Positions 6,055 to 51,300 of a stretch of 64,000 nt of DNA are shown here, one piece after another (the first letter of the stretch is position 1; every line of letters begins with the position of its first letter). This DNA comes from a virus. Below the pieces are notes generated by a model. The model was not told the origin of the DNA. It worked only from the letters and a program-made list of their open reading frames with translations, and searched no databases. Location of the stretch: IMG/VR virus record IMGVR_UViG_3300027675_000004, positions 1 to 64,000 of that record, one strand, 5' to 3'. Both the position numbers and the translations under genes were made by a program.

Positions 6055-6717
6055 ATGAATAATCCAGATGAAACATGTACATCATTAGAAGATGGTGTCT
6101 GCTACTATTGTGGAAAAAACACGAATAGCATTGCTGGCAATCCTAGTGAATGGCCATTAATGTTTTGTCATGTTGATCAACCAGGTGTTGCTCAGTATCA
6201 CCATATTAGTTGTGTTACTAAAAGGTTGGATTTATTACTTCATTTACAAAAACAATTACCAAGAGAATTTGTGGTTAAGACAGATAATTTGTTAGATGCA
6301 GATATTGATACTGCGATAATAGATTATTTACAAAAAGTTATCGAAGAGTTAAAAGCTGCTGATCGATTAAAAAATATACATAAAATGCAAGCAGAATTAT
6401 TATATCATGATGTAGCTTTTTGGGGGTCTAACTTTAAAAATAATAATATTAATGAAGAATTTATCGGGATTCAATTTTGTGTTGTATGCAATGATGTTTT
6501 TGCTTGGGCAACTGCAGATTGTGAATTAGTTGAAGACAAAGAGCTACCTTTAGTGTATAATATCTTTAATCAATATGGTAGAATTGGTATTGAGGCATGG
6601 TGTTCTTTAAAAAGAGATAAATTAGAGCCTCAACAACCGTATTTAGAAGAACACCTTAATTTCCATCAAATACGCGATCAAGTTGAAGCTATGATGAAGG
6701 TAAAATGGACACTTTAA
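6055..6717 (+). CDS. hypothetical protein with N-terminal Cys/His cluster (220 aa)
   Basis: The N-terminus has CYYCGK (about residues 16-21) and later CHVDQPGVAQYHHISC, a Cys4/His pattern suggesting a zinc finger of LIM/PHD-like or treble-clef type. A helical linker follows (RLDLLLHLQKQLPREF), then a C-terminal domain with another Cys pair (CVVCND). The SD lies in the upstream gene. No enzyme motif is recognised. It belongs to the run of zinc-binding small proteins at 5779-7099. Confidence 0.5.
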   Translation: MNNPDETCTSLEDGVCYYCGKNTNSIAGNPSEWPLMFCHVDQPGVAQYHHISCVTKRLDLLLHLQKQLPREFVVKTDNLLDADIDTAIIDYLQKVIEELKAADRLKNIHKMQAELLYHDVAFWGSNFKNNNINEEFIGIQFCVVCNDVFAWATADCELVEDKELPLVYNIFNQYGRIGIEAWCSLKRDKLEPQQPYLEEHLNFHQIRDQVEAMMKVKWTL

Positions 6718-6720
6718 TTA

Positions 6721-6894
6721 ATGTATGACGAACGTTATAATGTTTTTGATTGCCCTGAATGTGGTGGTGATTTTACGATTGTATTAAAAGTTTATTATCA
6801 AGATTATCGATATTATAAGAAAATACATTGTTATGTATGTAATAAAATTTTTGATTTACCTTTTACAGCTAAAGATAGAGAGATATTGGGATAA
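6721..6894 (+). CDS. small zinc-ribbon protein (57 aa)
   Basis: Starts three bases after the previous stop. CPECGG (residues 11-16) and CYVC (39-42) flank a beta-hairpin-like segment (FTIVLKVYYQDYRYYKKIH), the standard layout of a two-knuckle zinc ribbon. It has no strong SD of its own, so translation may be coupled to the gene before. Function unknown. Confidence 0.5.
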   Translation: MYDERYNVFDCPECGGDFTIVLKVYYQDYRYYKKIHCYVCNKIFDLPFTAKDREILG

Positions 6895-6913
6895 AATATT
6901 TATAAAATAATTA

Positions 6914-6937
6914 ATATACTAAAATTATTTAGTATAT
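6914..6937 (+). promoter_or_regulatory. perfect 10-bp palindromic hairpin upstream of a small gene
   Basis: ATATACTAAA (6914-6923) and TTTAGTATAT (6928-6937) form a perfect inverted repeat around a 4-nt loop, just before the strong SD (AAGGGGG) of the gene at 6953. It is too AT-rich for a strong terminator and has no U tract directly after it. An operator or an RNA hairpin is possible. Confidence 0.45.
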
Positions 6938-6952
6938 AAACAAGGGGGTAGT

Positions 6953-7099
6953 ATGAAGAAAACATGTGGTACATGTGGTAGCAGAGTTCAATATGAAAAC
7001 GATCCAGAACATTATATTTGTAATGCAGCTCCTGTTATAAAACGTGTTAGTGCAACTCATAAAGTTTGTTCGAAATATAAGAATTTTATGAAAGATTAA
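6953..7099 (+). CDS. small Cys-rich protein (48 aa)
   Basis: ATG 6953 with SD AAGGGGG. It begins KKTCGTCGSRVQYE and ends CSKYKNFMKD, with a Cys in between. The spacing (CxxC...C...C) fits the small phage zinc-binding family in which the last Cys precedes a KNF-like tail. Function unknown. The next gene starts three bases after the stop. Confidence 0.5.
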   Translation: MKKTCGTCGSRVQYENDPEHYICNAAPVIKRVSATHKVCSKYKNFMKD

Positions 7100-7101
7100 T
7101 A

Positions 7102-7779
7102 ATGCTTTTAGTAATTACAGATAAAGAGAAGCAAGGGTTAAAAGAAACTTTTAAACATTTTGGTCGTAAAAAAAATGTGGAAGAGGTTTTTTATGACCTT
7201 TGCTTCTGTATCTGCGCTCCACAAACAAAATTTATTAATAATCGCAAAGTAATTGATATTTTAATTGATAAGGAATTTTATTATATAGATATAGCCAAAT
7301 CTGAATTGGAAGAAATTTGTAAACCTGTTAGGTTTTATAGAAATAAAGCTAAATATTTATTAGAAGGTAAAAGTAAGTTTCAAGACATACTTTATCAAAT
7401 TTATAAATGGGAAGATTATGAAGAATTGTTATCTTCTCAAAAATTACGTGAATGGTTAGTAAAAAATGTTAAAGGCTTAGGTATGAAGACAGCATCGCAT
7501 TTTATGCGTAATTTAGGTGATAAAGATCTTGCCATAATTGATACTCACATTATTAAATTCTTAAATACATTAACTCCAAATGATGGAAAACAGTTTTTTG
7601 AGACACAAGGCGGTGATTGGGTAATAACTTTCGGTACTCCAAGAACAAATAAACATTATTTAGAAATGGAAATGATATTTCAAGATATTGCAAAACAGAA
7701 TAAATTGTCTTCTGCGGAGTTAGACGCGTTAATTTGGCAAAGATATAGTAAAACTCCATGGGAAAATTTTAAATATTAA
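7102..7779 (+). CDS. ogg: 8-oxoguanine DNA glycosylase/AP lyase, OGG2-like (225 aa)
   Basis: A helix-hairpin-helix GPD-type base-excision enzyme. The segment KNVKGLGMKTASHFMRNLG holds the HhH motif with the catalytic lysine (K129 in GMK). The following AIIDTHI carries the catalytic aspartate (D147). Length and layout match the compact OGG2 family of archaea and thermophilic bacteria, which removes 8-oxo-guanine from DNA and nicks the abasic site. The C-terminal half is less conserved. The start has no clear SD and lies three bases after the preceding gene, so coupling is likely. A phage copy would protect its DNA from oxidative damage. Confidence 0.75.
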   Translation: MLLVITDKEKQGLKETFKHFGRKKNVEEVFYDLCFCICAPQTKFINNRKVIDILIDKEFYYIDIAKSELEEICKPVRFYRNKAKYLLEGKSKFQDILYQIYKWEDYEELLSSQKLREWLVKNVKGLGMKTASHFMRNLGDKDLAIIDTHIIKFLNTLTPNDGKQFFETQGGDWVITFGTPRTNKHYLEMEMIFQDIAKQNKLSSAELDALIWQRYSKTPWENFKY

Positions 7780-7807
7780 TAAAAATATAATAAAATTATG
7801 GAGAAAT

Positions 7808-8290
7808 ATGAAAAAAATGATTTTACCACAAAAAAGAGATAAAAATGAATTGAAAAATGCATCAATTTTAGCAAAAGTGATAAAAATAGCTGAAAAAAAT
7901 GGTTTTAAAGAACATTTATCTTTTTTACCTTTATTTTTATCTTATAAAAATGGTAAAAATAATAGAAAATTCAATAAAAAACAATTTTTAGCACTTATAG
8001 AACGTATATGGGAAAGGAATAAAGAAAAGATCATATTTTCGCATGCATTTGCACTTGCTTTTTGGGGTTCAAAACGTCGTTTTAAAAATGGTACAACATA
8101 TGAACAATATGAAAAACGTTGTTTACAAGCAGGGATGACAAAAAAAGAAGCTTTAGCTAATTTAGAGAGTTATGAACGTGCTTGTTTTACTATATTGGAA
8201 TATAAATATCGATTGCAAGAAATGGTGATTAGTAGTGATCCGATAATGTATTTAGAGCATTGTTTGACTAATAAAGATTATAAGCATTAA
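7808..8290 (+). CDS. basic hypothetical protein (160 aa)
   Basis: ATG 7808 with a weak SD (GGAG). Highly basic and helical, with a central segment (HAFALAFWGSKRRFKNGTTYEQYEKRC) and a helix-rich C-terminus (KKEALANLESYERACFTILEYKYRLQEM). The C-terminal part recalls small phage proteins of unknown function that sit near replication or early genes. No catalytic motif is seen. It probably binds nucleic acid, judged only from charge. Confidence 0.5.
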   Translation: MKKMILPQKRDKNELKNASILAKVIKIAEKNGFKEHLSFLPLFLSYKNGKNNRKFNKKQFLALIERIWERNKEKIIFSHAFALAFWGSKRRFKNGTTYEQYEKRCLQAGMTKKEALANLESYERACFTILEYKYRLQEMVISSDPIMYLEHCLTNKDYKH

Positions 8291-10285: not shown

Positions 10286-11209
10286 ATGTCCGAAGATCAA
10301 GAACCAGTACCAGATGCTATAGAACAAGAATATAACGAAAAAATATTAAAAAGTTTTTCTGACCAACAAGCACTTCCTATAATTAATCCCACCTCATTAT
10401 CTCCAGATAAAGATATATTGGCAAAACAAAGAGATGACGAGAATAAACTTCCCGAAGAATTCGATTTAAAATATGTTGGTGATTTATCATATTTACAGGA
10501 AATTTTTTCCTCTAAATATGATAAATTTAATTCATTAGATTATTTAAAAAAAGTAAGACAGAGTATGCTTGAGGAGGGATACCCCGATTGTTCAGCTTTA
10601 AATGAATTTTTGTTTTGGGCGACAATGAGTCGTAAATTACAGATTATTTATCAGCGTATGCATGCTAAATTAAATCGTAAAAAAGGGACAAGTGAGGATG
10701 ATGCTGAAAATATCAGTTGGTTAAAAGAAATGCGTAATGTGTCAGAACAGGTAGCTTCATTACAGCGTTCGTTAGAAGGGATGCTTGATAAACGTAAAAA
10801 GATTAAGGATGTTACTGATTTACATGCTGAAACAATGGAAGCTGCTGAGTCTTTTATTAAGTCACACATTGGGGAATTTACTTTTCGTTGTACTTGTGGT
10901 GCGATTGTAAATACACAAGGTTTACCTAGTTTTGCAATTAAGACTACATTAGATAATAATGGTGAAACAATTTATCATGTTTTTTCACCAGAATTATGGT
11001 ATTTATATCATAAACAATTAATTCCATTACATTATGTAGCGTTTGTTTTACGTACTTCTCCTGAAGGTATTTTAGTAACTGCAGCTGCTAGAGGTGAATA
11101 TGGTGTTAAGCCAGTGCAAGAAGATGTACCTCTGTTAGAGAAAGAAGAAAGTTTTTTAAAGGATTTACAAAAGGTATATGACGACTACTACAAAGAACAC
11201 AACCATTGA
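10286..11209 (+). CDS. hypothetical protein upstream of terminase, candidate small terminase (307 aa)
   Basis: A TTG at 10277 also opens the frame; ATG 10286 is preferred. The first 60 residues are acidic and disordered-looking. A helical region follows (LNEFLFWATMSRKLQIIYQRMHAKL, then a heptad-like MRNVSEQVASLQRSLEGMLDKRKKI). The C-terminal domain begins with FRCTCGAIVNTQG and is beta-rich. Position directly before terL, with a 32-base overlap, suggests the DNA-recognition (small) terminase. No classical HTH is seen, so the call rests on context. Confidence 0.45.
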   Translation: MSEDQEPVPDAIEQEYNEKILKSFSDQQALPIINPTSLSPDKDILAKQRDDENKLPEEFDLKYVGDLSYLQEIFSSKYDKFNSLDYLKKVRQSMLEEGYPDCSALNEFLFWATMSRKLQIIYQRMHAKLNRKKGTSEDDAENISWLKEMRNVSEQVASLQRSLEGMLDKRKKIKDVTDLHAETMEAAESFIKSHIGEFTFRCTCGAIVNTQGLPSFAIKTTLDNNGETIYHVFSPELWYLYHKQLIPLHYVAFVLRTSPEGILVTAAARGEYGVKPVQEDVPLLEKEESFLKDLQKVYDDYYKEHNH

Positions 11210-13997
11210 GCAAAAACTAGGGTTATATTTTGTTTTTCATCATAAAATAGCATTTCGAGATTTTTTTATACCCCAAGCAACAGGAAAAGTTTTTTATACA
11301 TATTATTATCAATATGCACCTGCGTTATGTGACGAACTTGTGTGGGCAGGAGCACGTGGAACTGGAAAAAGTTTTGATCTTGAGTTTTCAATTATGCAAA
11401 ACCCATATTTATATCCAGGAGAAGAAACTTTTCTTACAGCATTTCGTAAAACACATGTTAAGGATCGTTTAGAGAAGGTTATTACTTATCTTGCGAATGT
11501 TCCTTATTTGCGAAGTTTCTTAAAAGGTGACACAAGCGTTTCTTTACGCGAGGCTGTTACACGTACTCCAATTTATTCAATTCGTTTTAAAAATAATCAT
11601 GAAATTTGTGGTATTTCTACGGGTGAAGATCCTCAAGCCGTTATGATTCAGGGACATCACCCATGTATTCATCCTTGGCAAAGAGTTCGTCTTTCTGATG
11701 GGAGAAATATTTCTATTATTAAAATTATTAGAGAAATTAGAAGGGGTAAAAAATTATTTGTTAAAAGTTTTGATTTTCATAAACAACAAATTGTTGATAG
11801 TGAAATTATTGATGGTTGGGTGTCACCAATTGAAGATAAAAAAATATTACGTATTATTTTAGAAGATAATACACATCTTTTAGTTACTAATAATCATAGT
11901 ATTTATGTTGAAAGTAATAATATTATTACTAAAAAACAAGCGCAAGATATTATTCCATTTTCAGATTTTTTATTATCTGATGAGCCAAGTTTGACATGTG
12001 CGCAAAGGTCGCTTGTTGTTGGTAGTTTGTTGGGTGATGCATCAATATCTATTCATCCATGGAATAATCATAGAATTGGTAGAAAAATTAATAAACAACG
12101 TAATATTCCAGATGCATCACATAGAATAAGATTTACGCATACAGCTTTACATGGAGAATATATAGAATTTAAATATAAAGTATTAAAAAATTTTGTTTCA
12201 GATAAAAAAGTAAAAATTATTAAACAAGTTCCCCGTATACATGGACACTATCAAGCATCTTTTAGCACTCGTTGTTTATCTGCATTTGATCCAATTGCAT
12301 TAACATGTATTAAAAATAAGAAAAAAACTATTACAGAAGAATTTTTAAAATTTGTGGATGAAAAATCTTTAGCTATTTGGTATATGGATGATGGGGGTAG
12401 AACTCTAGGTAAAAGCGGTGTAATATATTGTATTATATTGCATACACAAGGATTTACATTAAATGAAAATAAGTTATTAAAAATATTTTTAAAATCTAAA
12501 TTTGATATTGATGTAAAAATAGTAAAAAATAAACGTTTTGGGCATTTCTTATATCATTTATATCTTAATCGTAAAAATGCATTAAAATTTATTAATTTAA
12601 TTTTACCTTACTTACATCCAATTTTTTTATATAAAGTAGTTAATATAGAAACAGATACATCTAGCATTGGATCTAAGCTTAATGAATTTTTTAATGAAGA
12701 ATTTCTATTGCAGAAAAAAATGGTTAAAGAAATTATAATAGATAAACAAATTAATAAGGTATGTGATCTTAGTATTAAAAATACACATAATTATTTTGTT
12801 AGTCATACATTAGTCGCTAATTGTTTTAGATTTATCGAAGAAGGCCAATTCTATATACAAGACGCTTGGATGAAATATCAAAACACGCAACATCCTTCTG
12901 GTTCTGTTGACCGTTATTATGGCGTATCAAATGGGATCCTTGATTCTCCATTTTATGAGATTACGCATCGTTTAAAGAAATTTAAAAATAAAAAATTTAG
13001 GGTTCATCGCGCAATGGAACCTAATTGGAATCAAGAATTAAAACGTGAAAAATTAGCTACATTAAAAGGCCCTAATTCTAATGATTGGATTCAACAAATT
13101 GAAGCACAGGATGGAGAGCCTTCTTTTGGTGTATGGAATGAAGCTGATATTAAAAAGAATATTGATTTTAGTGAATCAAAAGATATTCCTGGGTTAATTG
13201 AAAACCAAATTCGTATTATTACAATTTTAGCAAAAGATTATGTGAATATGGATCCGTGTCAGGTATTATGTAATTTACCAGGTTTACCTGAAGGTGTAGA
13301 AGAAGTTATTGTTGGTATAGATGCAGGTTATTCGCAGCCCACTATTCTGTTACCTTTTTTTAAATATAAAGGAAAATGGAATTTAAAAGTAAAAATTTTA
13401 TTATTAGATCGTATGATTTCAGATGATCAAACAGAATTAGTTGATTATGTATTAACATTTTATAAAGCATATGCAGGCATAGATTGTACTTCTGCGGATG
13501 GTAGAGATATAGCGACAAAATTATGTAATCCCAAAAATGAACAATATAAATCTAAACAATATGATAAAAGGATTTTTTTCATAGATTTTCGTGAAGCCAT
13601 TATTACCGGATATAAGCGTAAAAAAGAAGGAGCTGGAGATATCTTAGAAGAAGTAAAAGATTATATGAAAAATCTTACTACTCGTATTTTGCGTGAAAAA
13701 TTTTATAGTACTGAATTTCTTTTAAATTATGACGAAGAAATGATACCAGAATTTATTTCTGAAACGCAGAAAACCGACCCTAGTGGTCGTGTTTCTATAC
13801 ATACCCCACCAACAGTGCATATACCAGAAGCGTATAGATGTTTTGCTGGTGCATGGTGGAAATTGCATATATTAATTGAAAAACCACCATTAGAAAATAT
13901 GGAAGATGATGAAGCTTACGAAATGCAATTTCCCTCTAAAGAAGAAAACACTTTAAACTTATTTAAAACACAAAAACAATCTTTAGAAAATATGTAA
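11178..13997 (+). CDS. terL: terminase large subunit with in-frame intein (939 aa precursor)
   Basis: The DNA-packaging motor of the head. Walker A is GARGTGKS (residues 58-65). The Walker-B-like acidic pair (FIEEGQ) lies just after the intein. The C-terminal RNase-H-like nuclease starts at VGIDAGYSQP (D715), with further acidic residues in IDCTSADG. Without the intein (residues 163-548) the protein would be 553 residues, a normal size for TerL. ATG 11178 has SD AAAGG and overlaps the previous gene. The intein sits between GHHP and CFRFIEEG, in the ATPase core, so splicing is required for packaging. Confidence 0.9.
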   Translation: MTTTTKNTTIEQKLGLYFVFHHKIAFRDFFIPQATGKVFYTYYYQYAPALCDELVWAGARGTGKSFDLEFSIMQNPYLYPGEETFLTAFRKTHVKDRLEKVITYLANVPYLRSFLKGDTSVSLREAVTRTPIYSIRFKNNHEICGISTGEDPQAVMIQGHHPCIHPWQRVRLSDGRNISIIKIIREIRRGKKLFVKSFDFHKQQIVDSEIIDGWVSPIEDKKILRIILEDNTHLLVTNNHSIYVESNNIITKKQAQDIIPFSDFLLSDEPSLTCAQRSLVVGSLLGDASISIHPWNNHRIGRKINKQRNIPDASHRIRFTHTALHGEYIEFKYKVLKNFVSDKKVKIIKQVPRIHGHYQASFSTRCLSAFDPIALTCIKNKKKTITEEFLKFVDEKSLAIWYMDDGGRTLGKSGVIYCIILHTQGFTLNENKLLKIFLKSKFDIDVKIVKNKRFGHFLYHLYLNRKNALKFINLILPYLHPIFLYKVVNIETDTSSIGSKLNEFFNEEFLLQKKMVKEIIIDKQINKVCDLSIKNTHNYFVSHTLVANCFRFIEEGQFYIQDAWMKYQNTQHPSGSVDRYYGVSNGILDSPFYEITHRLKKFKNKKFRVHRAMEPNWNQELKREKLATLKGPNSNDWIQQIEAQDGEPSFGVWNEADIKKNIDFSESKDIPGLIENQIRIITILAKDYVNMDPCQVLCNLPGLPEGVEEVIVGIDAGYSQPTILLPFFKYKGKWNLKVKILLLDRMISDDQTELVDYVLTFYKAYAGIDCTSADGRDIATKLCNPKNEQYKSKQYDKRIFFIDFREAIITGYKRKKEGAGDILEEVKDYMKNLTTRILREKFYSTEFLLNYDEEMIPEFISETQKTDPSGRVSIHTPPTVHIPEAYRCFAGAWWKLHILIEKPPLENMEDDEAYEMQFPSKEENTLNLFKTQKQSLENM
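11664..12821 (+). mobile_element. intein with LAGLIDADG homing endonuclease in terL
   Basis: Codes for 386 residues from Cys1 (CIHPWQRVRLSDG) to the terminal Asn (THNYFVSHTLVAN), followed by Cys+1 of the C-extein. Block A, block B (VTNNHSIYV) and block F/G (CDLSIKNTHNYFVSH...) of a Hint splicing domain are readable. Two LAGLIDADG helices are present: LVVGSLLGDAS (near precursor residue 280) and LAIWYMDDGG (near 400). The penultimate residue is Ala where most inteins have His, a variation seen in some active inteins. The element should self-splice and home into intein-free terL alleles. Confidence 0.9.
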
Positions 13998-14280: not shown

Positions 14281-14319
14281 AGAGCTGCATGATACTTTGG
14301 TATTGTGCAGCTCTTTTTT
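14281..14319 (+). terminator. rho-independent terminator
   Basis: AGAGCTGCA (14281-14289) pairs with TGCAGCTCT (14306-14314), with an inner ATAC/GTAT extension around a ttt loop. It is followed by TTTTTA. It ends the DUF2292-like unit. The portal start codon lies only six bases beyond the U tract, so read-through from terL must pass it. Confidence 0.85.
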
Positions 14320-14324
14320 ATTGC

Positions 14325-16082
14325 ATGCCAAAAAAAACAAAATCACAAAAAGTAAGCCCTACTTTTATAAAACATCAAAATGATCAACATGTTGGTGTTA
14401 TATCATCAGTAAAATCCCGAGTTCTATATGGTCCCTTACCAGCTGAAGAAGAAACTTCAGACTATTTCAATAAATCTAACCGATCTGATTATGGAAGAGT
14501 AATCGATATTAGAATTCCTCATGGTTATCATGAACAAGTTAAGAAAGCATGGGAGATGTATGAAACTGATCGGTTATTCAGATATTTAATCAGTAGGTGT
14601 GTAGATTTTGCTGCTAATGGATTTGAGTGGGAAGTTCCAGTAGAGAGAAAAATAAATTTTTCAGAATGGTTAAAAAATAAAGTTTTTAAAATAGAGAGCA
14701 AAGAAGATAAGGAAAGACGTGTATGGAATAAATGGGCGGCTACTATTAATAAACGGGTAGCAAATGTTTTACCAGGTATTGATGAAATAAATAAGTGGAT
14801 CGTGAAACATTTGTTGTTAGGTGGCATGGCTCCACTAGAATGGGAATGGGGCACTATTACTGTTGATAATATTGATTATCAAATGCCTATTAAAATGGTA
14901 ATACATAATTCTTTATCTATCGCATTAGAACGTCCAAAACAAACTTTTTCTAATGAAGAGATGTATTTAAAATTATCTTTAGCAGGAAAAAGTATTGCTG
15001 AATCATACAAGGAGACACCTTTAGGTACTGGCACTACGATAACACATAATCCTGATGAATGGCACAAAATCGTTTTAATGGGAACTGCAATTAAACCAAA
15101 ATTAGAAGGTTTTGCGGTTAAATATGATTGGACACCAGCAGATAATACGTCTTTAGTATATGGACGTAATGTTCAAACTGGACAAGGTCTATATCCTTCG
15201 CCACCTTTTATTGGATTATATGAAATTCTCGTTATGAGAAGGGCGTTAACCGCTGCAGATCTCGCTATTTTAGATGGTGTAATAAATTTTATTTTAGATT
15301 GGGAAATAGGTGATAATACAATATTGCAAAATGGTCAAAATAAAGAAATTTTACCAAATCAACCTAGACCTGCAAAATATGACTCAAGTGGAAGTAAGAT
15401 AGAGAAAAGCACTATTGAAATGGCGAAAGAAATTATTACATCTGACACGCGTGGTAATGTAATGCAATTATTCCATCCTTATTATTTTAAACTTAATATA
15501 AAAACTCCTGACACATCTGTTTTATTAAATACTACTAAATATGTACAATCTACGGTAGAAGTATATCAAGCATTTGGGATATTACTTTCTCCTGCTGATA
15601 AAAGAATGGATTTTTCTGGTATTAATATTCAAAATTTTGAACAATTTGTTGATAATATCCGTTTAAATCATATAAGACGTTTTTGGGAAGCATTGACTAC
15701 AGCAATTGTAGAACGTAATAAAGGTAAATTAACTGCTATTCCAAACATGTCGTTTAAACCACTTAATACAAAAACAGAAGCATTTAAAATGGGTTTATTA
15801 AATTTAATTAAAATAGGTAAAATATCAACACGTAGTTTATTACAAGCCTATGGATTAGATGATAAAGTTGAGATTGAACGCATTGCACAAGAAATATCTT
15901 CTGGCGAGAAGGAATTAACTGATCGTCAAGTACCAGTTTCATATGTTCAAGCAAAAGTTAATCCTACAACTAAAAATGAACCTGATAATAATATTGAGCA
16001 AACTAAAAAAAAGAATAAAACACAAATATCACCATTAGAACAACAAGGTAGACCAAATAAGGGTACTGCGAAGGAGAAATAA
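14325..16082 (+). CDS. phage portal protein (585 aa)
   Basis: Forms the dodecameric ring at the head vertex through which DNA passes. Placement between terL and the protease/capsid genes, the size, and segments such as EMYETDRLFRYLISRCVDFAANGFEWE, IVKHLLLGGMAPLEWEWG and YPSPPFIGLYEILVMRRALT are typical of SPP1/HK97-like portals (DUF935-type in flavour). The tail is Lys/Gln-rich and disordered. The frame opens at 14289, but ATG 14325 (MPKKTKSQ) is preferred because the earlier codons lie in the terminator stem. No SD is visible: the start follows directly on the U tract. Confidence 0.8.
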   Translation: MPKKTKSQKVSPTFIKHQNDQHVGVISSVKSRVLYGPLPAEEETSDYFNKSNRSDYGRVIDIRIPHGYHEQVKKAWEMYETDRLFRYLISRCVDFAANGFEWEVPVERKINFSEWLKNKVFKIESKEDKERRVWNKWAATINKRVANVLPGIDEINKWIVKHLLLGGMAPLEWEWGTITVDNIDYQMPIKMVIHNSLSIALERPKQTFSNEEMYLKLSLAGKSIAESYKETPLGTGTTITHNPDEWHKIVLMGTAIKPKLEGFAVKYDWTPADNTSLVYGRNVQTGQGLYPSPPFIGLYEILVMRRALTAADLAILDGVINFILDWEIGDNTILQNGQNKEILPNQPRPAKYDSSGSKIEKSTIEMAKEIITSDTRGNVMQLFHPYYFKLNIKTPDTSVLLNTTKYVQSTVEVYQAFGILLSPADKRMDFSGINIQNFEQFVDNIRLNHIRRFWEALTTAIVERNKGKLTAIPNMSFKPLNTKTEAFKMGLLNLIKIGKISTRSLLQAYGLDDKVEIERIAQEISSGEKELTDRQVPVSYVQAKVNPTTKNEPDNNIEQTKKKNKTQISPLEQQGRPNKGTAKEK

Positions 16083-16819: not shown

Positions 16820-16836
16820 TAATTGTGGGGTTATTG

Positions 16837-19428
16837 ATGACAGTAGAAAAAAGCTATACAGTAACTTGTAAAAATTGTGATCAAGAGATTATTTATTTTA
16901 ATATGAATAGTTTAAAATCACAGGCCATTAATTGTCCTAAATGTAGTTGTACATTAGATACTAATGGTAATATATTAGTTAAACCTATTTTACCAAGTAA
17001 TGTACAGGAAGAAATAAAAAATTTAACAAATGAACATGAGCAGCTACATTTATCTTGCGAAGTTGATGATTTTGATAATTATTATGACTTTTTAAATTTA
17101 TATGAGCGACACCTGAATGTTATAAAGGCATTAGAACAGCGCAATGTATTTCATAAATATAAAGAAGATTTTTTAGATGATTATTATAAATTTGACAAAC
17201 AAGAATTTGATATAAAAGATGAAGTAAATATTGATGAATTGTTACAATATTTAAAAAGTTTTAAAATAAAGGATCCTTTTATATACTTGACTAAAGATAA
17301 TGAGTTTATTATTAATACTACCAAAGAAGAAACAGAAAAAACAGCCTTTTTGAAGATCGCTATTTGGAAGACATTAAAATTACTCCCTAGACGTTATTGG
17401 GGAGCGTTTAAATTTTTAAAAGAAAATAACACCTTAGATGAATGTTTAGATTCAAAGACTGTTTTTTCTTTAAATTGTTCGCGTATAGTTGAGGATAACC
17501 GCTATGTTGAGTCTGCCTATAATAATAATACAGATTTTCTAAAATCAGCAGTATGCATAAAGGGAGAATTATTGAAACAGGCTCGTTATATAAAGGATAC
17601 TGATAAGTTATTAGTTAGCACTTTTTTTCTTAATTTAGTAGATAAGTCGTTACCTTATACTGAAAGTAACTTTATTGTTTCTAATTTTGTTGAACAAGAT
17701 TATCCTTTGTATATTACTAAAAATTCTTTTGGTTTAAATTGTCAAATACATAAAGATGGGGATATTATTTCTATTTATACAGAAGAAGGAATTAAGTTAA
17801 ACGAATATCTTCCGAATATTATAAAAGTTATAAAAACTTTGTCTGTAGACAGTTTGATTGTTTTAGGGACTTTAGAGTTAGTAGGTACACAGACTGATAC
17901 TAATGGAGTGTTAGAATATTTAAAAACAGATAATAAGGATAATAATATCGTTTGTAATATAAATGATGTATTATATTTTGATACTGATTTACATAAATTA
18001 AATTTTTCAGAACGTAGAAAATTTTTAGATATATTAAATATTAAACAATCAACATTTACATTAACAAAATCTGATTATCAATTAAATAAATTACCTTATA
18101 TTTTTTGTAAAAAAAGAGATGAATTAGAAAAAGCATTACAAAGATTAAACTTAATTGATAATAATGGTGTTGTAATTAGAGTAGATATGCCTTATACTTT
18201 GTCGTATAAACAACCTGGTTTATTTATTTATAATAAAGAAATTAAAAAATGTGTATCTATATGTAAAAATGAAAATAATATTAATGAAATATCAATATTA
18301 TGTAATTTTTTGAATTGTGAAATTAAAGATATTTATATTAATGTAATGCACATACCACATGTAGAATCTGGTAATATTTTTAATTCAGTAGAAGTATTAT
18401 TAAAAAACTTTACTTTAATAGAAACTAGAAATTTTTCTAGTTATGAAATACCACCATTATATCAAGAAATAAAATTAAAAAAGAATCTTTCTAAAACATT
18501 TTTAGTAGAAGGAACTAGTTTTTATTATGATGATACAAAAAATATGCCAATAATAATACAGCGTTATCCAGTATGGGGTGGATATCAGGCTAAAATTATT
18601 ACGCATATTAATGAAAAAGAATATAATAATAAATTGTTAAGAGCCATATTACTTTACGCGCAAGAAAATAATTTTTTAAGAAACGAAAAATTTTCTGTTA
18701 CTGGTGAATTTCTGGATGAACAAACTATTACTTGGGAAGATTTAAAACTTAGTAATTCAATTAAAGATAAATTAAGAAAAGTTGAATCATTGATTTCTAA
18801 AAATGACCCTAATCTTGATTCACGAGGATTAATTTTTATTGGACCACCTGGGTGTGGGAAAACACTTACTGGTAAATTATTATCTAAAATGGCTCCAACA
18901 TTTATTTGGGTCACGGCAAAAGATTGTTCAGCTATCGGGCCTAGTAGTGCTTTTTCTATAGCTTTTTCTTTAGCGCGTAATCTTCGACCTTCTATTCTTT
19001 TTATGGAAGACATTGATTCTTACATAGAATATGGGATGATAGATCTTTTAAAAACAGAATTAGATGGTTTAAAATTAAATAATGGCATATTTACAATATT
19101 AACATCTAATTTTCCAGAAAAATTACCTGAAGCATTAATTGATAGACCTGGGAGATTCCACGATATTATATATTTTAATTTACCTAATAAAGAAATAAGA
19201 AAAGAAATGTTATTACATTTTTTAAAAGAAGATATTAGCGATGCAATATTAGAGTCTGTTTTAAAACAAACAGAAGGTTTTTCTGGGGCACATATAAAAG
19301 AAATTTGTAGATTTGCTCAAATTATACAAAAAGAGGATACGCTAGATATGCCGCAAGCGTTATTAAAATCTTTAGAGAAATTACTAGAACAACGCAAATT
19401 AATTAGGGATATTAAGGGACGATCTTAG
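16837..19428 (+). CDS. AAA+ ATPase with N-terminal zinc ribbon (863 aa)
   Basis: ATG 16837 follows SD GTGGGG. A C4 zinc ribbon (C11, C14, C33, C36) is followed by about 600 residues of unrecognised sequence and a C-terminal AAA+ module of the FtsH/katanin/proteasomal class. That module has Walker A GPPGCGKT (669-676), Walker B ILFMEDID (720-727), a sensor-like ILTSNFPE, LIDRPGRF with the arginine finger, and a C-terminal helical lid (FSGAHIKEICRFAQ). It probably remodels or unfolds proteins. Its place between portal and prohead protease is unusual and suggests a role in head assembly or maturation. Confidence 0.8.
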   Translation: MTVEKSYTVTCKNCDQEIIYFNMNSLKSQAINCPKCSCTLDTNGNILVKPILPSNVQEEIKNLTNEHEQLHLSCEVDDFDNYYDFLNLYERHLNVIKALEQRNVFHKYKEDFLDDYYKFDKQEFDIKDEVNIDELLQYLKSFKIKDPFIYLTKDNEFIINTTKEETEKTAFLKIAIWKTLKLLPRRYWGAFKFLKENNTLDECLDSKTVFSLNCSRIVEDNRYVESAYNNNTDFLKSAVCIKGELLKQARYIKDTDKLLVSTFFLNLVDKSLPYTESNFIVSNFVEQDYPLYITKNSFGLNCQIHKDGDIISIYTEEGIKLNEYLPNIIKVIKTLSVDSLIVLGTLELVGTQTDTNGVLEYLKTDNKDNNIVCNINDVLYFDTDLHKLNFSERRKFLDILNIKQSTFTLTKSDYQLNKLPYIFCKKRDELEKALQRLNLIDNNGVVIRVDMPYTLSYKQPGLFIYNKEIKKCVSICKNENNINEISILCNFLNCEIKDIYINVMHIPHVESGNIFNSVEVLLKNFTLIETRNFSSYEIPPLYQEIKLKKNLSKTFLVEGTSFYYDDTKNMPIIIQRYPVWGGYQAKIITHINEKEYNNKLLRAILLYAQENNFLRNEKFSVTGEFLDEQTITWEDLKLSNSIKDKLRKVESLISKNDPNLDSRGLIFIGPPGCGKTLTGKLLSKMAPTFIWVTAKDCSAIGPSSAFSIAFSLARNLRPSILFMEDIDSYIEYGMIDLLKTELDGLKLNNGIFTILTSNFPEKLPEALIDRPGRFHDIIYFNLPNKEIRKEMLLHFLKEDISDAILESVLKQTEGFSGAHIKEICRFAQIIQKEDTLDMPQALLKSLEKLLEQRKLIRDIKGRS

Positions 19429-19442
19429 TAGGAGGTTAATAA

Positions 19443-21062
19443 ATGGCAGAAGTAGAAAAGGCTATTTGGACAGCAGCATATATAAATGATTTACCGGATG
19501 CATCTTTTGCATATATTGAATCTGGTGGTACTAAAGATAAAGATAATAAGACAGTACCTAGATCGTTACGTCATTTACCATATAAAGATAAAGATAATAA
19601 AATTGATGCTGATCATGTACGTAATGCATTAGCTAGATTACCTATAACTGATATTTCTGACGAAGCTAAGGTAACAGCACGCAGAAAGTTAGTTTCAGCT
19701 GCAAAAAAAGTTGGGGTTAATGTTGCAGAAACTACAAAAAAATCTTTAGATGTACCATTTGAATGTCCTTTTGAAATTACAAAAACATATGAGGATTCTG
19801 AAAAGTGGTATATTGAGGGTTATGCTGGTAGTACTGAATTAGATTTAACTGGTGACTTAATTACAGAAGATGCATTTAAAAACGCAGAGGATGATTTATT
19901 AAATAATTCAACAGTTTTATATAATCATGACCCAGAACAACCTATTGGTAAAATAGAAGATGTTAAAGCTACTAAAGAAGGGTTATGGGTGAAAGTCTTA
20001 ATTAGTAAAACGGTGCCTGACACTTGGCAAAAAGTAAAAGAAGGGGTAATAAATAAATTCAGTATTAGAGGTAGGGTAATTAATGCAATTAAAAAATTTA
20101 TTAAAGATATTGGTAAGGTGGTAAATGTCATTAATGAATTATATTTAATTGAAGCGTCCCTAGTTGCACTTCCAGCTAATCCTGAAGCACGTGCATTACG
20201 ATGGTATATTACAAAATCATTACAACAGTTTGAACTAGGAGGAGGTGAAATTCCAAAAGAACACGTTGAACAAAGCGTGTCTGGAAAAGAAACTATGAAA
20301 ACTATAACAGACTTAATTGAACAGATATCTAAACGGTTAGTCGCGGATGAAGATAAAACTCTTCTTGAAACACTAAAGGTTGAGATTGAAAAAGCATGTA
20401 AACCTGTTAATGGTAAGGAAGGTAAGGAAAACATGCCTATGAAATTAAAGAAAAAATCAGGTGAAGAGTTAACACAAGAAAGTGTTGATCTTTTAGAAAA
20501 ATCGATTGCAGATCTACAAGCAGCTTTAGATGTTGAAAAGCAAAAAAAGGTGCTTAAAGGTTTGAATGAGATGACTGATGTTGAGATGAAGGAAATTGTT
20601 GATTTGTCTGAAGAAATTAGAAAAACACAAGCAGATAAATTCCCTTATCCTGATTCTATTACAAAAAGTAATGTTGGACCTAAAAAATCTACTGGTGAGT
20701 TATATACGCAAGAAGAAATTGAAATTATGGTGAAAAGCCTTGCTGATAACCAAGCTAAAATTAGTGACTTAGAAAAACAAATTGCTAATTTAAATGCTGA
20801 TAAAGAAGTAGAAAAACGTTGGGATAACATGAAAAATGAATACGATGCAAATGATGCTATTGCAATTAAATCTATCTTAAAGAAATCTATTTCTGGTATT
20901 GCATTAACACCAGAAGAGACAGAAGCTTTAGTTGTGAAAAAATTGAATAATGATGAATTAAGAATTGGTGGTGAACACGTTAGTGTTATTAAAAAGGGTC
21001 TTACCGAAGAACGTAGAAAAGAATTATTAAGAAAAGGTGGCATTAAAACAAGAATCGTATAA
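19443..21062 (+). CDS. prohead protease fused to scaffold-like region (539 aa)
   Basis: Three parts. Residues 1-95 are a small basic domain (AYINDLPDASFAYIE...RHLPYKDKDN...HVRNALARLP) of the DUF6582-like type often joined to this protease. Residues 100-270 are an HK97-type prohead serine protease (U35 fold): VLYNHDPEQPIG holds the catalytic His (H162) and NKFSIRGRV the Ser (S207), with LIEASLVALPANPEA after it. Residues 280-539 are a charged coiled-coil tail that likely acts as internal scaffold. The protease matures the procapsid. SD AGGAGG; directly upstream of the cement and capsid genes. Confidence 0.85.
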   Translation: MAEVEKAIWTAAYINDLPDASFAYIESGGTKDKDNKTVPRSLRHLPYKDKDNKIDADHVRNALARLPITDISDEAKVTARRKLVSAAKKVGVNVAETTKKSLDVPFECPFEITKTYEDSEKWYIEGYAGSTELDLTGDLITEDAFKNAEDDLLNNSTVLYNHDPEQPIGKIEDVKATKEGLWVKVLISKTVPDTWQKVKEGVINKFSIRGRVINAIKKFIKDIGKVVNVINELYLIEASLVALPANPEARALRWYITKSLQQFELGGGEIPKEHVEQSVSGKETMKTITDLIEQISKRLVADEDKTLLETLKVEIEKACKPVNGKEGKENMPMKLKKKSGEELTQESVDLLEKSIADLQAALDVEKQKKVLKGLNEMTDVEMKEIVDLSEEIRKTQADKFPYPDSITKSNVGPKKSTGELYTQEEIEIMVKSLADNQAKISDLEKQIANLNADKEVEKRWDNMKNEYDANDAIAIKSILKKSISGIALTPEETEALVVKKLNNDELRIGGEHVSVIKKGLTEERRKELLRKGGIKTRIV

Positions 21063-21079: not shown

Positions 21080-21469
21080 ATGGATGTATCTTTATTACAA
21101 ACACATATAGGTGTTGATTTAGCCGCTGGAGTATCTGTTGGTCCTGGTACGTTATTGAATTTGTATTCCGGGGCAGGTGTCTCAAGTGGTAAATTGACTG
21201 GACGTTTAGCAGATCATGGTGATAGTCGTTGGGCACATGGTTTTGCGTTAACATCTGGTGCTGGAACAAAAGTAGCTGGAACGGCACAAAAAGTGCGTAT
21301 TGATAGAGTAGGTAAGGTAACTAATGTAAGTTATTTAACAATGAGTCCTGGTCAAACAGTATATCTTGGCGAAGACGGCAAATATGCAATTACTGGTACA
21401 CAGAAAGTTGGATTTGCTGTAGGTGCTTATGAAGTATTTGTTGATCTAGACATGCAATTAGGTGCATAA
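21080..21469 (+). CDS. DUF2190-like capsid cement protein (129 aa)
   Basis: SD AAGGAGGAGG. An all-beta protein with the swollen-hairpin pattern of the DUF2190/decoration group: GPGTLLNLYSG, WAHGFALTSGAGTKVAGT, KVRIDRVGKV, MSPGQTVYLGEDGKYAITG, KVGFAVGAYEVFVDLD. Such proteins bind the outside of the capsid lattice and stabilise it after expansion. The position just before the major capsid gene fits. The assignment is by pattern and context. Confidence 0.65.
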   Translation: MDVSLLQTHIGVDLAAGVSVGPGTLLNLYSGAGVSSGKLTGRLADHGDSRWAHGFALTSGAGTKVAGTAQKVRIDRVGKVTNVSYLTMSPGQTVYLGEDGKYAITGTQKVGFAVGAYEVFVDLDMQLGA

Positions 21470-21498: not shown

Positions 21499-22518
21499 AT
21501 GGGTGATATTACACGTGGTTTTACAACAACTGATGGTATAGACTTAAATGAAGTCCTATATAATACTGTTCTTCCAATTGTAGATTTATACAATCTTGAA
21601 GAAGTATTAGATTTAAGGGCACTTCTTTGCTCAGATTGGGATGAAAGTTACATCAAATTTGACGCTTCGGGACAATGGAAATTTCAGAAGTTAGCTGAAT
21701 CTGAAAAACCTTCTTCGAAGAAGAAAGTTTGGGGTAAGATGCAAAAAGACTGTGCAAAGTATGGTCTTGATATCGGTTATACATATGATTGGTTGATGAG
21801 CGATTCTTCAAGTGCTGCTGAAATTGAAGGTTTAGCTCGTAAAGCAATCGAAAGAGATCGTGCGTTACAAACTGCTGTGATTTTAGACGAATTATTAACA
21901 ACTGGTGGGTTTTTCGATGGTTCTTTCTCTGCAAATGAGAAAATGTCAGCACCACCAACTTATGGTGCTAATGAATTCGCTGGAAGTCATACGCATTATG
22001 TTTCTGCTGGATCTGCAACAATTACGTTAGCAACACTAACAGCTATGAAATTGCATTTAAAAGAGCACGGGTTTAAGGGGCAACTTTGGGGTTTCATGAA
22101 TGCTGATATGACTAAAAATATCGAAGATATTGCTGGTTTCTATGGCGCTGCTGCAGGTACCACAACTCTTCCTGGTAAAATAGTCGATAATGTTAATGTT
22201 GAAGGTTTCGCTGGAAGATTATTAGGTATCGATTGGAAAGAAACAGAATGGATGCCAACCGATTATTTAATAATTTTAGGAACACAAGCAACTGGAGCTG
22301 ATAAACCTGTACGTTATATTCAGAAAAAAAATCCTTCTGCTAAGGGTTTAATTTTAACTCCTGGAAGTTATGATCCTAAATATCCTATGATTGATGCAGA
22401 CTATATCCATTGGTTAGAAGCGTTAGTAGTATTAAGAGGAGCGGGTGTTGTATATCAGTTAACTACTGGTGATTACACTAATCCTACAGTTACAACTAAT
22501 GTAATACAAGCTGACTAA
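21499..22518 (+). CDS. major capsid protein, HK97 fold (339 aa)
   Basis: The very strong SD (AAAGGAGGTG), position after the protease and cement genes, and size fit the major capsid protein. Segments typical of the fold include the N-arm and E-loop region (DWDESYIKFDASGQWKFQKLAESEKPSSKKK), a spine-helix-like AAEIEGLARKAIERDRALQTAVILDELL, and a C-terminal P-domain/A-loop part (YPMIDADYIHWLEALVVLRGAGVVYQLTTG). It assembles the icosahedral shell. A strong terminator follows at 22572. Confidence 0.8.
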   Translation: MGDITRGFTTTDGIDLNEVLYNTVLPIVDLYNLEEVLDLRALLCSDWDESYIKFDASGQWKFQKLAESEKPSSKKKVWGKMQKDCAKYGLDIGYTYDWLMSDSSSAAEIEGLARKAIERDRALQTAVILDELLTTGGFFDGSFSANEKMSAPPTYGANEFAGSHTHYVSAGSATITLATLTAMKLHLKEHGFKGQLWGFMNADMTKNIEDIAGFYGAAAGTTTLPGKIVDNVNVEGFAGRLLGIDWKETEWMPTDYLIILGTQATGADKPVRYIQKKNPSAKGLILTPGSYDPKYPMIDADYIHWLEALVVLRGAGVVYQLTTGDYTNPTVTTNVIQAD

Positions 22519-48321: not shown

Positions 48322-51300
48322 ATGGCTTTATTTAAAGACAAAACAAAAGTAGAATTTGATAACTATAAAACTACATTAGGCGAAGCCAACGATGAAGTAA
48401 TAGTTGGGAATGAAAATGTGGTGTTCGCTAAAATTTTATCTGATTCTTCTATTAAAGAATATATTGAGCCTACTATTAAATTTACCAAGTGGGATGGAGA
48501 AGAAAGTTTAATTTTAAGTTATCCTACTTCTGGCGGTATGACCGATAAGACCCTGATAGACGGTGAAGGGTTGAAGATGTACGGTGGGGAAGAAGATTTC
48601 TATTTTAATCAATATGATGACCAGACGATGAAATTTGGGCTGATATTGAATGAAAAACCCAAATCGAATCGCTGGAAATTTAATATATCAGGTGCGGAAG
48701 ATTTAGAGTTTGTTCGACCAGCATCAATACTCAAAGACGGTGTAGCACAGCATATCCCCGAACAAATTGGTGGGTATAAAATAAACAGGATTTCAACGGG
48801 AGAGAAGTTCGGGTTTTTCTATCAGCCGATATTTAAAGATGCTAAAGGTAACACTTGCCCCGCTAAATTATTGATTGAAGGAAATAAGTATATTATTACA
48901 ATACCTCAAAGTTTCCTTGATACTGCAACTTATCCAGTAATTGCAAATGATAGTTTTAGTAGTGTTTACAATGGTTCGACAAGGGCAATCACGGTTAATG
49001 TTACTGCCGGTGATTTAATAGTAGTGGGGTATTCTTTTAATGATGCTGCTGCTAATGCTACTATTTCAGACGAGAATAGTAATACATATACTCTTGCCAA
49101 TTCTATCGGGAACTGGAATGGTGATGGAGGAGCAGCTTATTGTGCAATCCAAGTTTGGTATGCGATTGCAAACACCACTAATTCTACCTGTACAATAACT
49201 TGCTCGTCTAAAGGCGACCCTGGGTTATCTTGCCATGTGTATTCAGGGATGGATACTTCTGACCCTTATGATAATTCTTTAAATTATGGAGAAACAGTTG
49301 CAACTGCTACTCACACAACGGGAAATTTAGCAGTAAGTACAAACGCTGGAATATTATTTGCGTATTGGGCTAATGAAGCGGGAGCAACGGCGTTATCAGC
49401 TACCACAGGTCAGGGGTGGACAGAGAGGACAGAACAAGCCGGGCATACTCATCAAACTCAAGATAAAGCGTTTACAGCATCTGGTGACTATACAGCTACG
49501 ATGACAAGCAATCCATCAGACCACTATGCTTGCGTCTTTGTAGCTTTTAATACCGCATCGGGCAGCTCCAGCTCATCTTCATCAAGAAGTTCCAGCTCAT
49601 CAAGAAGTAGTTCTAGTGAGAGTTCTAGTGAGAGTTCTAGTGAGAGTTCTAGTTCGTCAATATCGAGTTCAAGTGAATCGAGTTCATCACGCAGTAGCAG
49701 TTCCAGTTCTCAATCGTCGTCGAGCAGAAGCAGCTCCAGCTCAAGTAAATCGAGTTCATCACGCAGTAGCAGCTCAAGCTCTCAATCGTCGTCAAGTAGA
49801 AGCAGCTCAAGCTCTAAATCATCTAGGTCAAGTTTAGGCGAAATAAGTGATGTAGATGGGACAAGATTCTATCTCCCATCAACTGGTGTATCAACAGAAA
49901 CTCCTGCATATAACGTTAATTGGGAAGATACCTCTTTTGCTAGTCGTTTAAGAGCAGTGACAGAAAAAATAAGTTCACCTTTTACTAATGTAATTATAAT
50001 GGAATCGTCTGATACAGATAAAGATTGTCTTGGAATACAATATATATCAGACCCACTATCTGCACAAATTATTCCATCTCAAACAGTTAAAATACAAATA
50101 TGTTGTAGTCAACAGAATACTGATTGTAATGAATATCTTGTTTGGGGTGTTTATCTTTGTTCTAATGACGGTTCTATTATAAGAGGAACAGTAGTTGATC
50201 TTAGAAGAGATAATACTGAATTAATTGGGCTTTTCAATAATACCAATAGAAGCGATTCTGCTACATCCAATGAAATTAGCGTGCAAGAAGGTGATAGATT
50301 GATATTTGAAATAGGTATAGGTGGAAACCCAACTCTTATGCAAAGTCACACGGGATACTTAAGAATTGGAGATAATTCTATAAATGATTTACCAGAAAAT
50401 GATACCTCAACTGATGATTATTGCCCATGGATAGAATTTGTAGGTGGAGTATCTAGTAGTCGTAGCTCAAGTTCTTCTTCATCACGTAGTAGCAGCTCCA
50501 GCTCAAGTGAATCGAGTTCATCACGCAGTAGCAGCTCCAGCTCTCAATCGTCGTCGAGTAGTAGCAGCTCCAGCTCAAGTGAATCGAGTTCATCACGCAG
50601 TAGCAGCTCCAGCTCTCAATCGTCGTCGAGTAGAAGCAGTTCTAGCTCAAGTGAATCGAGTTCAAGTGAATCGAGTTCAAGTGAATCGAGTTCAAGTGAA
50701 TCGAGTTCATCACGTAGTAGTTCATCATCAAGTAAATCTAGTAGTTCAGAAAGTAGTTCGTCAAGTAGTAGAAGTAGTTCCAGCAGTAAATCAAGCTCTT
50801 CTAAATCATCTAGTTCAAGTAGTTCGTCTTCTCCTTATACATTAATAGATAGCTATTCAAGTGCTAATCAAAGTAATTTCAGTTTAAGCATAGTTCATCC
50901 ATCAGAAGGTGCATATTACTCCGGTGTTGGTCAAAAAGTTACTTTAACACAGGATTGGAATATATATCAATGTAAATTTTATTTGAAAAAAGTAGGAAAT
51001 CCTACTGGCACTTTATTGGCAAGATTATATACTTATGATCCAGTATTTCAAGATTTTGATATTACTTTAGGTAATTCTTCTACATTAGATACAAGTACTT
51101 TAACAACTTCATATTTATTATATACTTTTACATTCTCTTCTCCAGTTCATTTAAGTCCAAATGATTATGGAGTAACAGTTATAGTAGCTTCTGGAACTGT
51201 AAATTCTACTAATTATATAGATGTTTGTGTAGATAGTACTTCTCCAACTCATCCTAATTATTTAGAGGCATATCGTATTGGTGAATGGGATAGGTATACC

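Follow-up and report, generated by a model that had tools for sequence, protein, structure and literature searches.

What does an AAA+ ATPase gene do in the head module of a phage? Heads already have a known motor, the packaging terminase. To our knowledge, HK97-type prohead proteolysis is understood as self-contained, with no energy-using partner, and we know of no AAA+ partner that HK97-type maturation needs. The gene that raises the question lies in a 64,000-nucleotide stretch of DNA (the window), positions 1 to 64,000 of a virus record of 175,053 bases (IMGVR_UViG_3300027675_000004).

The gene encodes an intact classic AAA+ module

The AAA+ gene is an open frame of 863 codons on the plus strand, from ATG 16837 to the stop at 19428. 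An in-frame GTG lies at 16825, 12 nt before this ATG; we kept the 863-codon length because ATG 16837 aligns with the start of the homolog in contig L018. A classic AAA+ ATPase module with its lid occupies 18751 to 19425 (PF00004, E 1.8e-16). Within it we found, all on the plus strand, Walker A (GPPGCGKT, 18841 to 18864), Walker B (ILFMEDID, 18994 to 19017), sensor 1 (TILTSN, 19093 to 19110), and the SRH arginine fingers, both in DRPGRF (19141 to 19158). The window protein therefore has every feature of a classic AAA+ protein (PF00004), namely, Walker A, the Walker B acid, the sensor 1 Asn, the two SRH Arg residues, and the C-terminal lid. A first-pass annotation of this DNA had reported an intact Walker A, Walker B, and arginine finger, and all three are present along with sensor 1. 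Walker A, sensor 1, and the two SRH Arg residues were conserved across an alignment of 25 sequences, and Walker B read ED, not DE, in 25/25. The AAA+ part matched phrog_3757, phrog_30773, phrog_10440, and phrog_7485, all families without an assigned function. The likeness to these phage families is confined to the AAA+ part, and none of them is described as protease linked.

A prohead protease gene follows the AAA+ gene

The next gene starts 14 nt after the AAA+ gene and encodes an S78 (HK97-type) prohead protease whose long C-terminal part is scaffold-like (19443 to 21062, plus strand; PF04586, 1e-10; phrog_80, 1.9e-25). The aligned motifs place the catalytic His codon at 19926 to 19928 and the catalytic Ser codon at 20061 to 20063, both on the plus strand. 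These residues were conserved in 14/14 aligned sequences, and the window protease is among those intact. The protease thus belongs with the known HK97 family prohead proteases (MEROPS S78/U35, PF04586, TIGR01543) in family, in its intact His/Ser, and in its usual place before the capsid gene. It differs from them in having an AAA+ module as the adjacent gene or, in relatives, in the same chain. Two further plus-strand genes complete this side of the locus. A small gene (21080 to 21469), 42 to 84% identical to the relatives' copies, fills the interval from protease to capsid, as it does by synteny in L012, L018, L019, and L020. It is followed by the major capsid protein gene (21499 to 22518), identified by phrog_3990 (3.6e-38) and by tblastn to annotated actinophage major capsid proteins.

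On the other side, the gene at 14289 to 16082 (plus strand) is a putative portal gene by position and size only. Its homologs, 50 to 69% identical, occupy the same place in L012, L019, and L020. We found no match for it in Pfam, in PHROG, or to profiles of annotated portals. A profile comparison with annotated phages and with L028 and L029 confirmed neither the portal name nor the name of the putative terminase large subunit gene (11178 to 13997), and both names stay positional because these comparisons gave no match. The first-pass annotation had placed the AAA+ gene between portal and protease; the S78 protease does adjoin it, and the portal label was not confirmed by sequence. Inserted in the putative terminase gene is a segment that resembles an intein and includes a LAGLIDADG endonuclease (PF03161, 1.7e-29; Intein_splicing, 2.5e-5), and L012, L019, and L020 have no such insert in this gene.

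Motor and protease are linked across the family

Scans of 2.9 million viral contigs yielded three groups of family relatives. In the window clade (L018, L005, L006, and L007), the AAA+ gene stands directly before the protease gene; L018 is full length (52%), L005 is without the first 264 residues, and L006 and L007 are cut. Further two-gene forms occur in L019/L021, L029, L057, L063, and L066, and the AAA+ protein of L019/L021 is 462 aa long, with neither the ligase domain nor the zinc ribbon described below. The third group has a fusion, found in 28 contigs, in which a single open reading frame encodes the S78 domain, variable linkers, and then a middle domain and the AAA+ module. Fused proteins often end in a tail with the motif EGRVxSxKN. 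Independent libraries detected the protease domain in fused members (Pfam in 13/25, TIGR01543 of NCBIfam in 14/25, and phrog_80 in 17/25). An assembly artifact is an unlikely source of the fusions, since 28 contigs carry one, although a few of these are near-copies (L028/L047, L041/L043, and L064/L065). The fused protein of L044 (6630 to 12767) reaches 2,046 aa and has a long repetitive tail, with repeats like YEVRP..YGVYRT..HP.

We scored linkage with a family-core profile and an S78 profile, leaving out three family contigs that are truncated at the 5' end. Flanks could be read in 39 family contigs, and every one of these was linked to S78, 28/39 by fusion and 11/39 through an immediately adjacent gene, with gaps between the AAA+ and protease genes of −15 to +39 nt (n = 11). 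Among other phage AAA+ loci in the same scan, 0/68 were fused or adjacent to S78, a control that used flanks of ±6 kb and in which the S78 profile drew partly on fused members and could be less sensitive to other S78 types. The difference is significant (Fisher P ~3e-29 for 37 de-duplicated family loci versus 68 controls, kinship ignored). The first-pass annotation had named as refuting its proposal the finding that the gene occurs only as an unlinked accessory; we found the opposite. Linkage in 39 contigs, including 28 fusions, led us to reject a chance neighbor.

The order of the two parts was constant within each form. In all two-gene forms the AAA+ gene comes first, and in the fused forms the protease domain comes first. 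Because these orders are opposite, the fusion is not simply a lost stop codon. The earliest branches of a core tree are L019/L066 and the window clade, all two-gene; fused members make up most of the remainder, and the two-gene L057 and L029+L063 sit among them. The tree requires at least three changes between fused and two-gene states; its outgroup branches are long. The nearest outgroup may be a 460-aa AAA+ relative in L067 (5677 to 7056; family profile 3e-52 at positions 70 to 386), with no S78 protease nearby. A Bacteriovoracaceae contig (L013, 9176 to 12060) encodes remote relatives, a tandem pair of AAA+ proteins that seem to carry signal sequences and whose Walker B is of a similar ED form.

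We also checked the neighbors of these genes. The fused genes of L028, L036, and L037 are flanked by portal (phrog_2662/12) and capsid (phrog_10) genes, and the order in L029 is portal (phrog_113), AAA+, protease, and capsid (phrog_371). These neighbors confirm that the genes lie in a head module, the portal and capsid families of which vary. L020, whose putative portal and capsid are 50% and 62% identical to those of the window, lacks a family member both in the AAA+ slot and across the rest of its 43.5-kb contig, and actinophages with related capsid genes have none in that slot. The absence of the motor from L020 and these actinophages indicates that it is an optional addition to the head module.

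The predicted fold of the motor is nearest to YjoB and Bcs1

The middle domain (18307 to 18750, plus strand) precedes the AAA+ module in the whole family. Together the two domains were modeled at a pLDDT of ~90 from 25 aligned sequences; an earlier prediction from 5 sequences (pLDDT 50) was set aside. The top solved folds in Foldseek were YjoB (1.1e-17) and Bcs1 (2e-15), with proteasome ATPases and p97 ranking lower. Both top matches, to YjoB of Bacillus subtilis (PDB 7w42) and Bcs1 (e.g., 9gsn and 6uks), cover ~400 columns spanning the middle and AAA+ domains, with modest whole-match TM scores of 0.37 to 0.53, so that membership in the Bcs1 clade is putative. Ranking by sequence alone put p97/Cdc48 first, for the AAA+ part only. 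Identity to YjoB and Bcs1 is ~17%, and no counterpart of the Bcs1 membrane part was seen in the phage protein. The phage motor differs from both in being tied to a phage protease, since YjoB and Bcs1 carry none.

The first-pass annotation had called the ATPase FtsH/katanin type. The pore loop by which threading unfoldases (FtsH, ClpX, and p97) are recognized was not found in the family: the Ar-hydrophobic-Gly pore loop 1 is two residues shorter than in p97 D2, and its aromatic residue is not conserved. An HExxH zinc metalloprotease domain C-terminal to the AAA+ module is absent from the window protein, which ends with that module and has no match to a peptidase family. The lack of a peptidase in this protein, the missing pore loop, and the closeness of the fold to YjoB/Bcs1 led us to reject the FtsH/katanin label, and the ED Walker B was a further departure from it. 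In its predicted fold, the motor is nearest to Bcs1/YjoB, rather than to FtsH/katanin.

The window clade has a zinc ribbon and a degenerate ligase-like domain

At the N terminus, four Cys residues form a zinc ribbon, CxxC-x18-CxxC (16867 to 16944, plus strand). The ribbon, which the first-pass annotation had already noticed, keeps all four Cys in L018, and the domain is missing from L005 and L019. Zinc ribbons of similar look occur at differing places in several fused relatives, which fits the idea of a modular, mobile set of parts.

Residues 274 to 490 (17656 to 18306, plus strand) resemble the nucleotidyltransferase domain of ATP-dependent DNA ligases, with the Pfam match at 17740 to 18183. 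Against the isolated stretch, PF01068 scored 1.7e-6 in the window, 2.9e-5 in L005, and 7.8e-4 in L018, and the window match exceeds the curated cutoff. Archaeal DNA ligases matched at E 2.4e-6 when a 4-sequence profile was compared with the PDB. The similarity to ATP-dependent DNA ligase (PF01068) extends over ~100 to 150 residues and takes in motif III as well as the strand that follows motif I. The differences are that the KxDG of motif I and the Glu of motif IV are replaced, that no OB-fold is seen, and that the domain is inserted in an AAA+ protein. Motif I reads KNSFG in the window, KNING in L018, and MHKIG in L005, without the Lys three residues before the Gly and without the Asp. We found no OB-fold after the ligase-like domain; the family's own middle domain, which also occurs in members without a ligase domain, follows directly. 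With motif I lost, the motif IV Glu substituted, and the OB-fold missing, the sequence is very probably not that of a functional ligase, and we rejected an active DNA ligase. Our scan of the relatives confined the domain to the window clade, where it diverges faster than the AAA+ part (36 to 43% identity, compared with 71 to 73%). The most likely reading is that it was added for docking or recognition. The first-pass annotation had found no recognized family in the middle region, a claim that was only partly right: residues 274 to 490 are ligase-like, and the middle domain that follows them is YjoB/Bcs1-like in predicted fold.

A proposed role in capsid maturation and its alternatives

We favor, with moderate confidence, the reading that a Bcs1-type ring is the ATP-driven partner of the S78 protease and remodels or presents folded procapsid proteins. 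It is supported by the strict linkage, the conserved ATPase motifs, the intact protease His/Ser, and the place in the head module. According to this model, the AAA+ protein would be the ATP-driven partner of the phage's own prohead protease, and six or seven copies would form a ring associated with it. The ring would join the protease during prohead assembly and would likely be made with the procapsid or taken into it, as the protease is; Prohead 1 of HK97 encloses ~60 copies of its protease (PMC12749128). We place the ring in the procapsid because it would associate with a protease that is itself there. The ring would act on folded proteins through a vestibule of the middle domain, as in Bcs1, with no threading, unlike FtsH or ClpX. 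Bcs1 moves a folded substrate in a concerted cycle without threading (PMC11143374, PMC12219900), and we infer the same mode here. ATP would be spent on remodeling scaffold, capsid, or protease subunits, which would thereby be exposed or presented to the S78 active site. In the window clade, the catalytically dead ligase-like domain and the zinc ribbon would have been added in front, most likely for docking or recognition.

The link between the motor and capsid maturation is well supported, and the coupling of energy to it is what we infer. The first-pass annotation had proposed that the motor may help capsid maturation, scaffold removal, or portal placement; the S78 linkage upholds maturation, and no one step, be it scaffold removal, portal placement, or another, was singled out. 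Fusion of the motor to the protease suggests that capsid maturation is ATP powered in some phages. Only tentatively do we extend this to an undescribed, widespread group of tailed phages in which a Bcs1-type ring, fused to or made with S78, would be carried in the procapsid, where ATP would drive or time capsid proteolysis.

The ring could instead be an assembly chaperone that folds the protease-scaffold, holds it inactive, or doses it during prohead assembly and has no part in cleavage. YjoB, the closest fold match, is a chaperone-like ATPase. Several fused proteins place the AAA+ module between the S78 domain and the C-terminal tail, as a built-in chaperone might be placed, and that tail weakly matches phrog_3017, a family of head maturation proteases (two members, E 0.007). 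The conserved ATPase motifs suit a chaperone and a partner in cleavage alike, and nothing separates the two; we regard the chaperone as a credible but rather unlikely account.

Less probable still is a cargo loader, that is, a ring that supplies the prohead with folded proteins, whether internal, ejected, or the protease itself. Folded-protein translocation by Bcs1-type rings (PMC11143374) would allow it, and Pvc15, an AAA+ ATPase that helps fill a contractile injection tube with effectors (PMC11495950), sets a precedent for AAA+-aided loading of phage-like particles. However, the constant partner of the family is the S78 protease, not a cargo gene, and we consider this role improbable.

A classical threading protease, in which the ring would unfold the scaffold and feed it to the S78 active site as in FtsH, Lon, or ClpXP, is more doubtful again. 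One chain does hold motor and protease, and the sequences closest to the AAA+ part include those of p97, FtsH, and proteasome ATPases. An AAA+ motor and a peptidase likewise share one chain or complex in FtsH, Lon, and the proteasome ATPases. Here, in contrast, the peptidase is of the S78 type and is placed on the N-terminal side of the AAA+ module, and the threading pore loop, shortened and not conserved, and the FtsH zinc metalloprotease domain are absent. HK97-type proteases, moreover, cleave at specific sites and do not degrade threaded chains. A function unrelated to the head (replication, host takeover, or anti-defense), with the gene in the head module by chance, is already disfavored and very improbable: phage AAA+ genes often lie elsewhere in the genome and the window clade has a DNA-ligase-like domain, but that domain has lost its motif I lysine, and the 28 protease fusions and full linkage span divergent head modules.

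A union of two known families

What is new is the union of an AAA+ motor and a prohead protease; both halves belong to known families. We found no description of an AAA+/prohead-protease fusion in the open-access literature. With a fused query, no protein in 50,697 phage records covered most of its length. Matches in phage and plasmid records were confined to the AAA+ part, and the scan of 84,980 prokaryote genomes found nothing closer than remote AAA+ proteins. A protease-motor family would make ATP-controlled capsid maturation testable and would put a Bcs1-type ring, which handles folded proteins, in a viral assembly pathway. The S78-AAA+ fusion would also mean that AAA+ and peptidase were brought together independently in evolution.

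Elsewhere in the window, ~25 kb in the capsid-to-tail interval (23045 to 48070) holds genes that by eye resemble those for glycosyltransferases, methyltransferases, and sugar-nucleotide enzymes. Beyond it, 48322 to 54195 encodes a 1,957-aa protein with long Ser-rich repeats (SSSSSR/K/Q/E). A Ser-rich open reading frame of similar style (6279 to 7841) occupies the AAA+ slot in L020.
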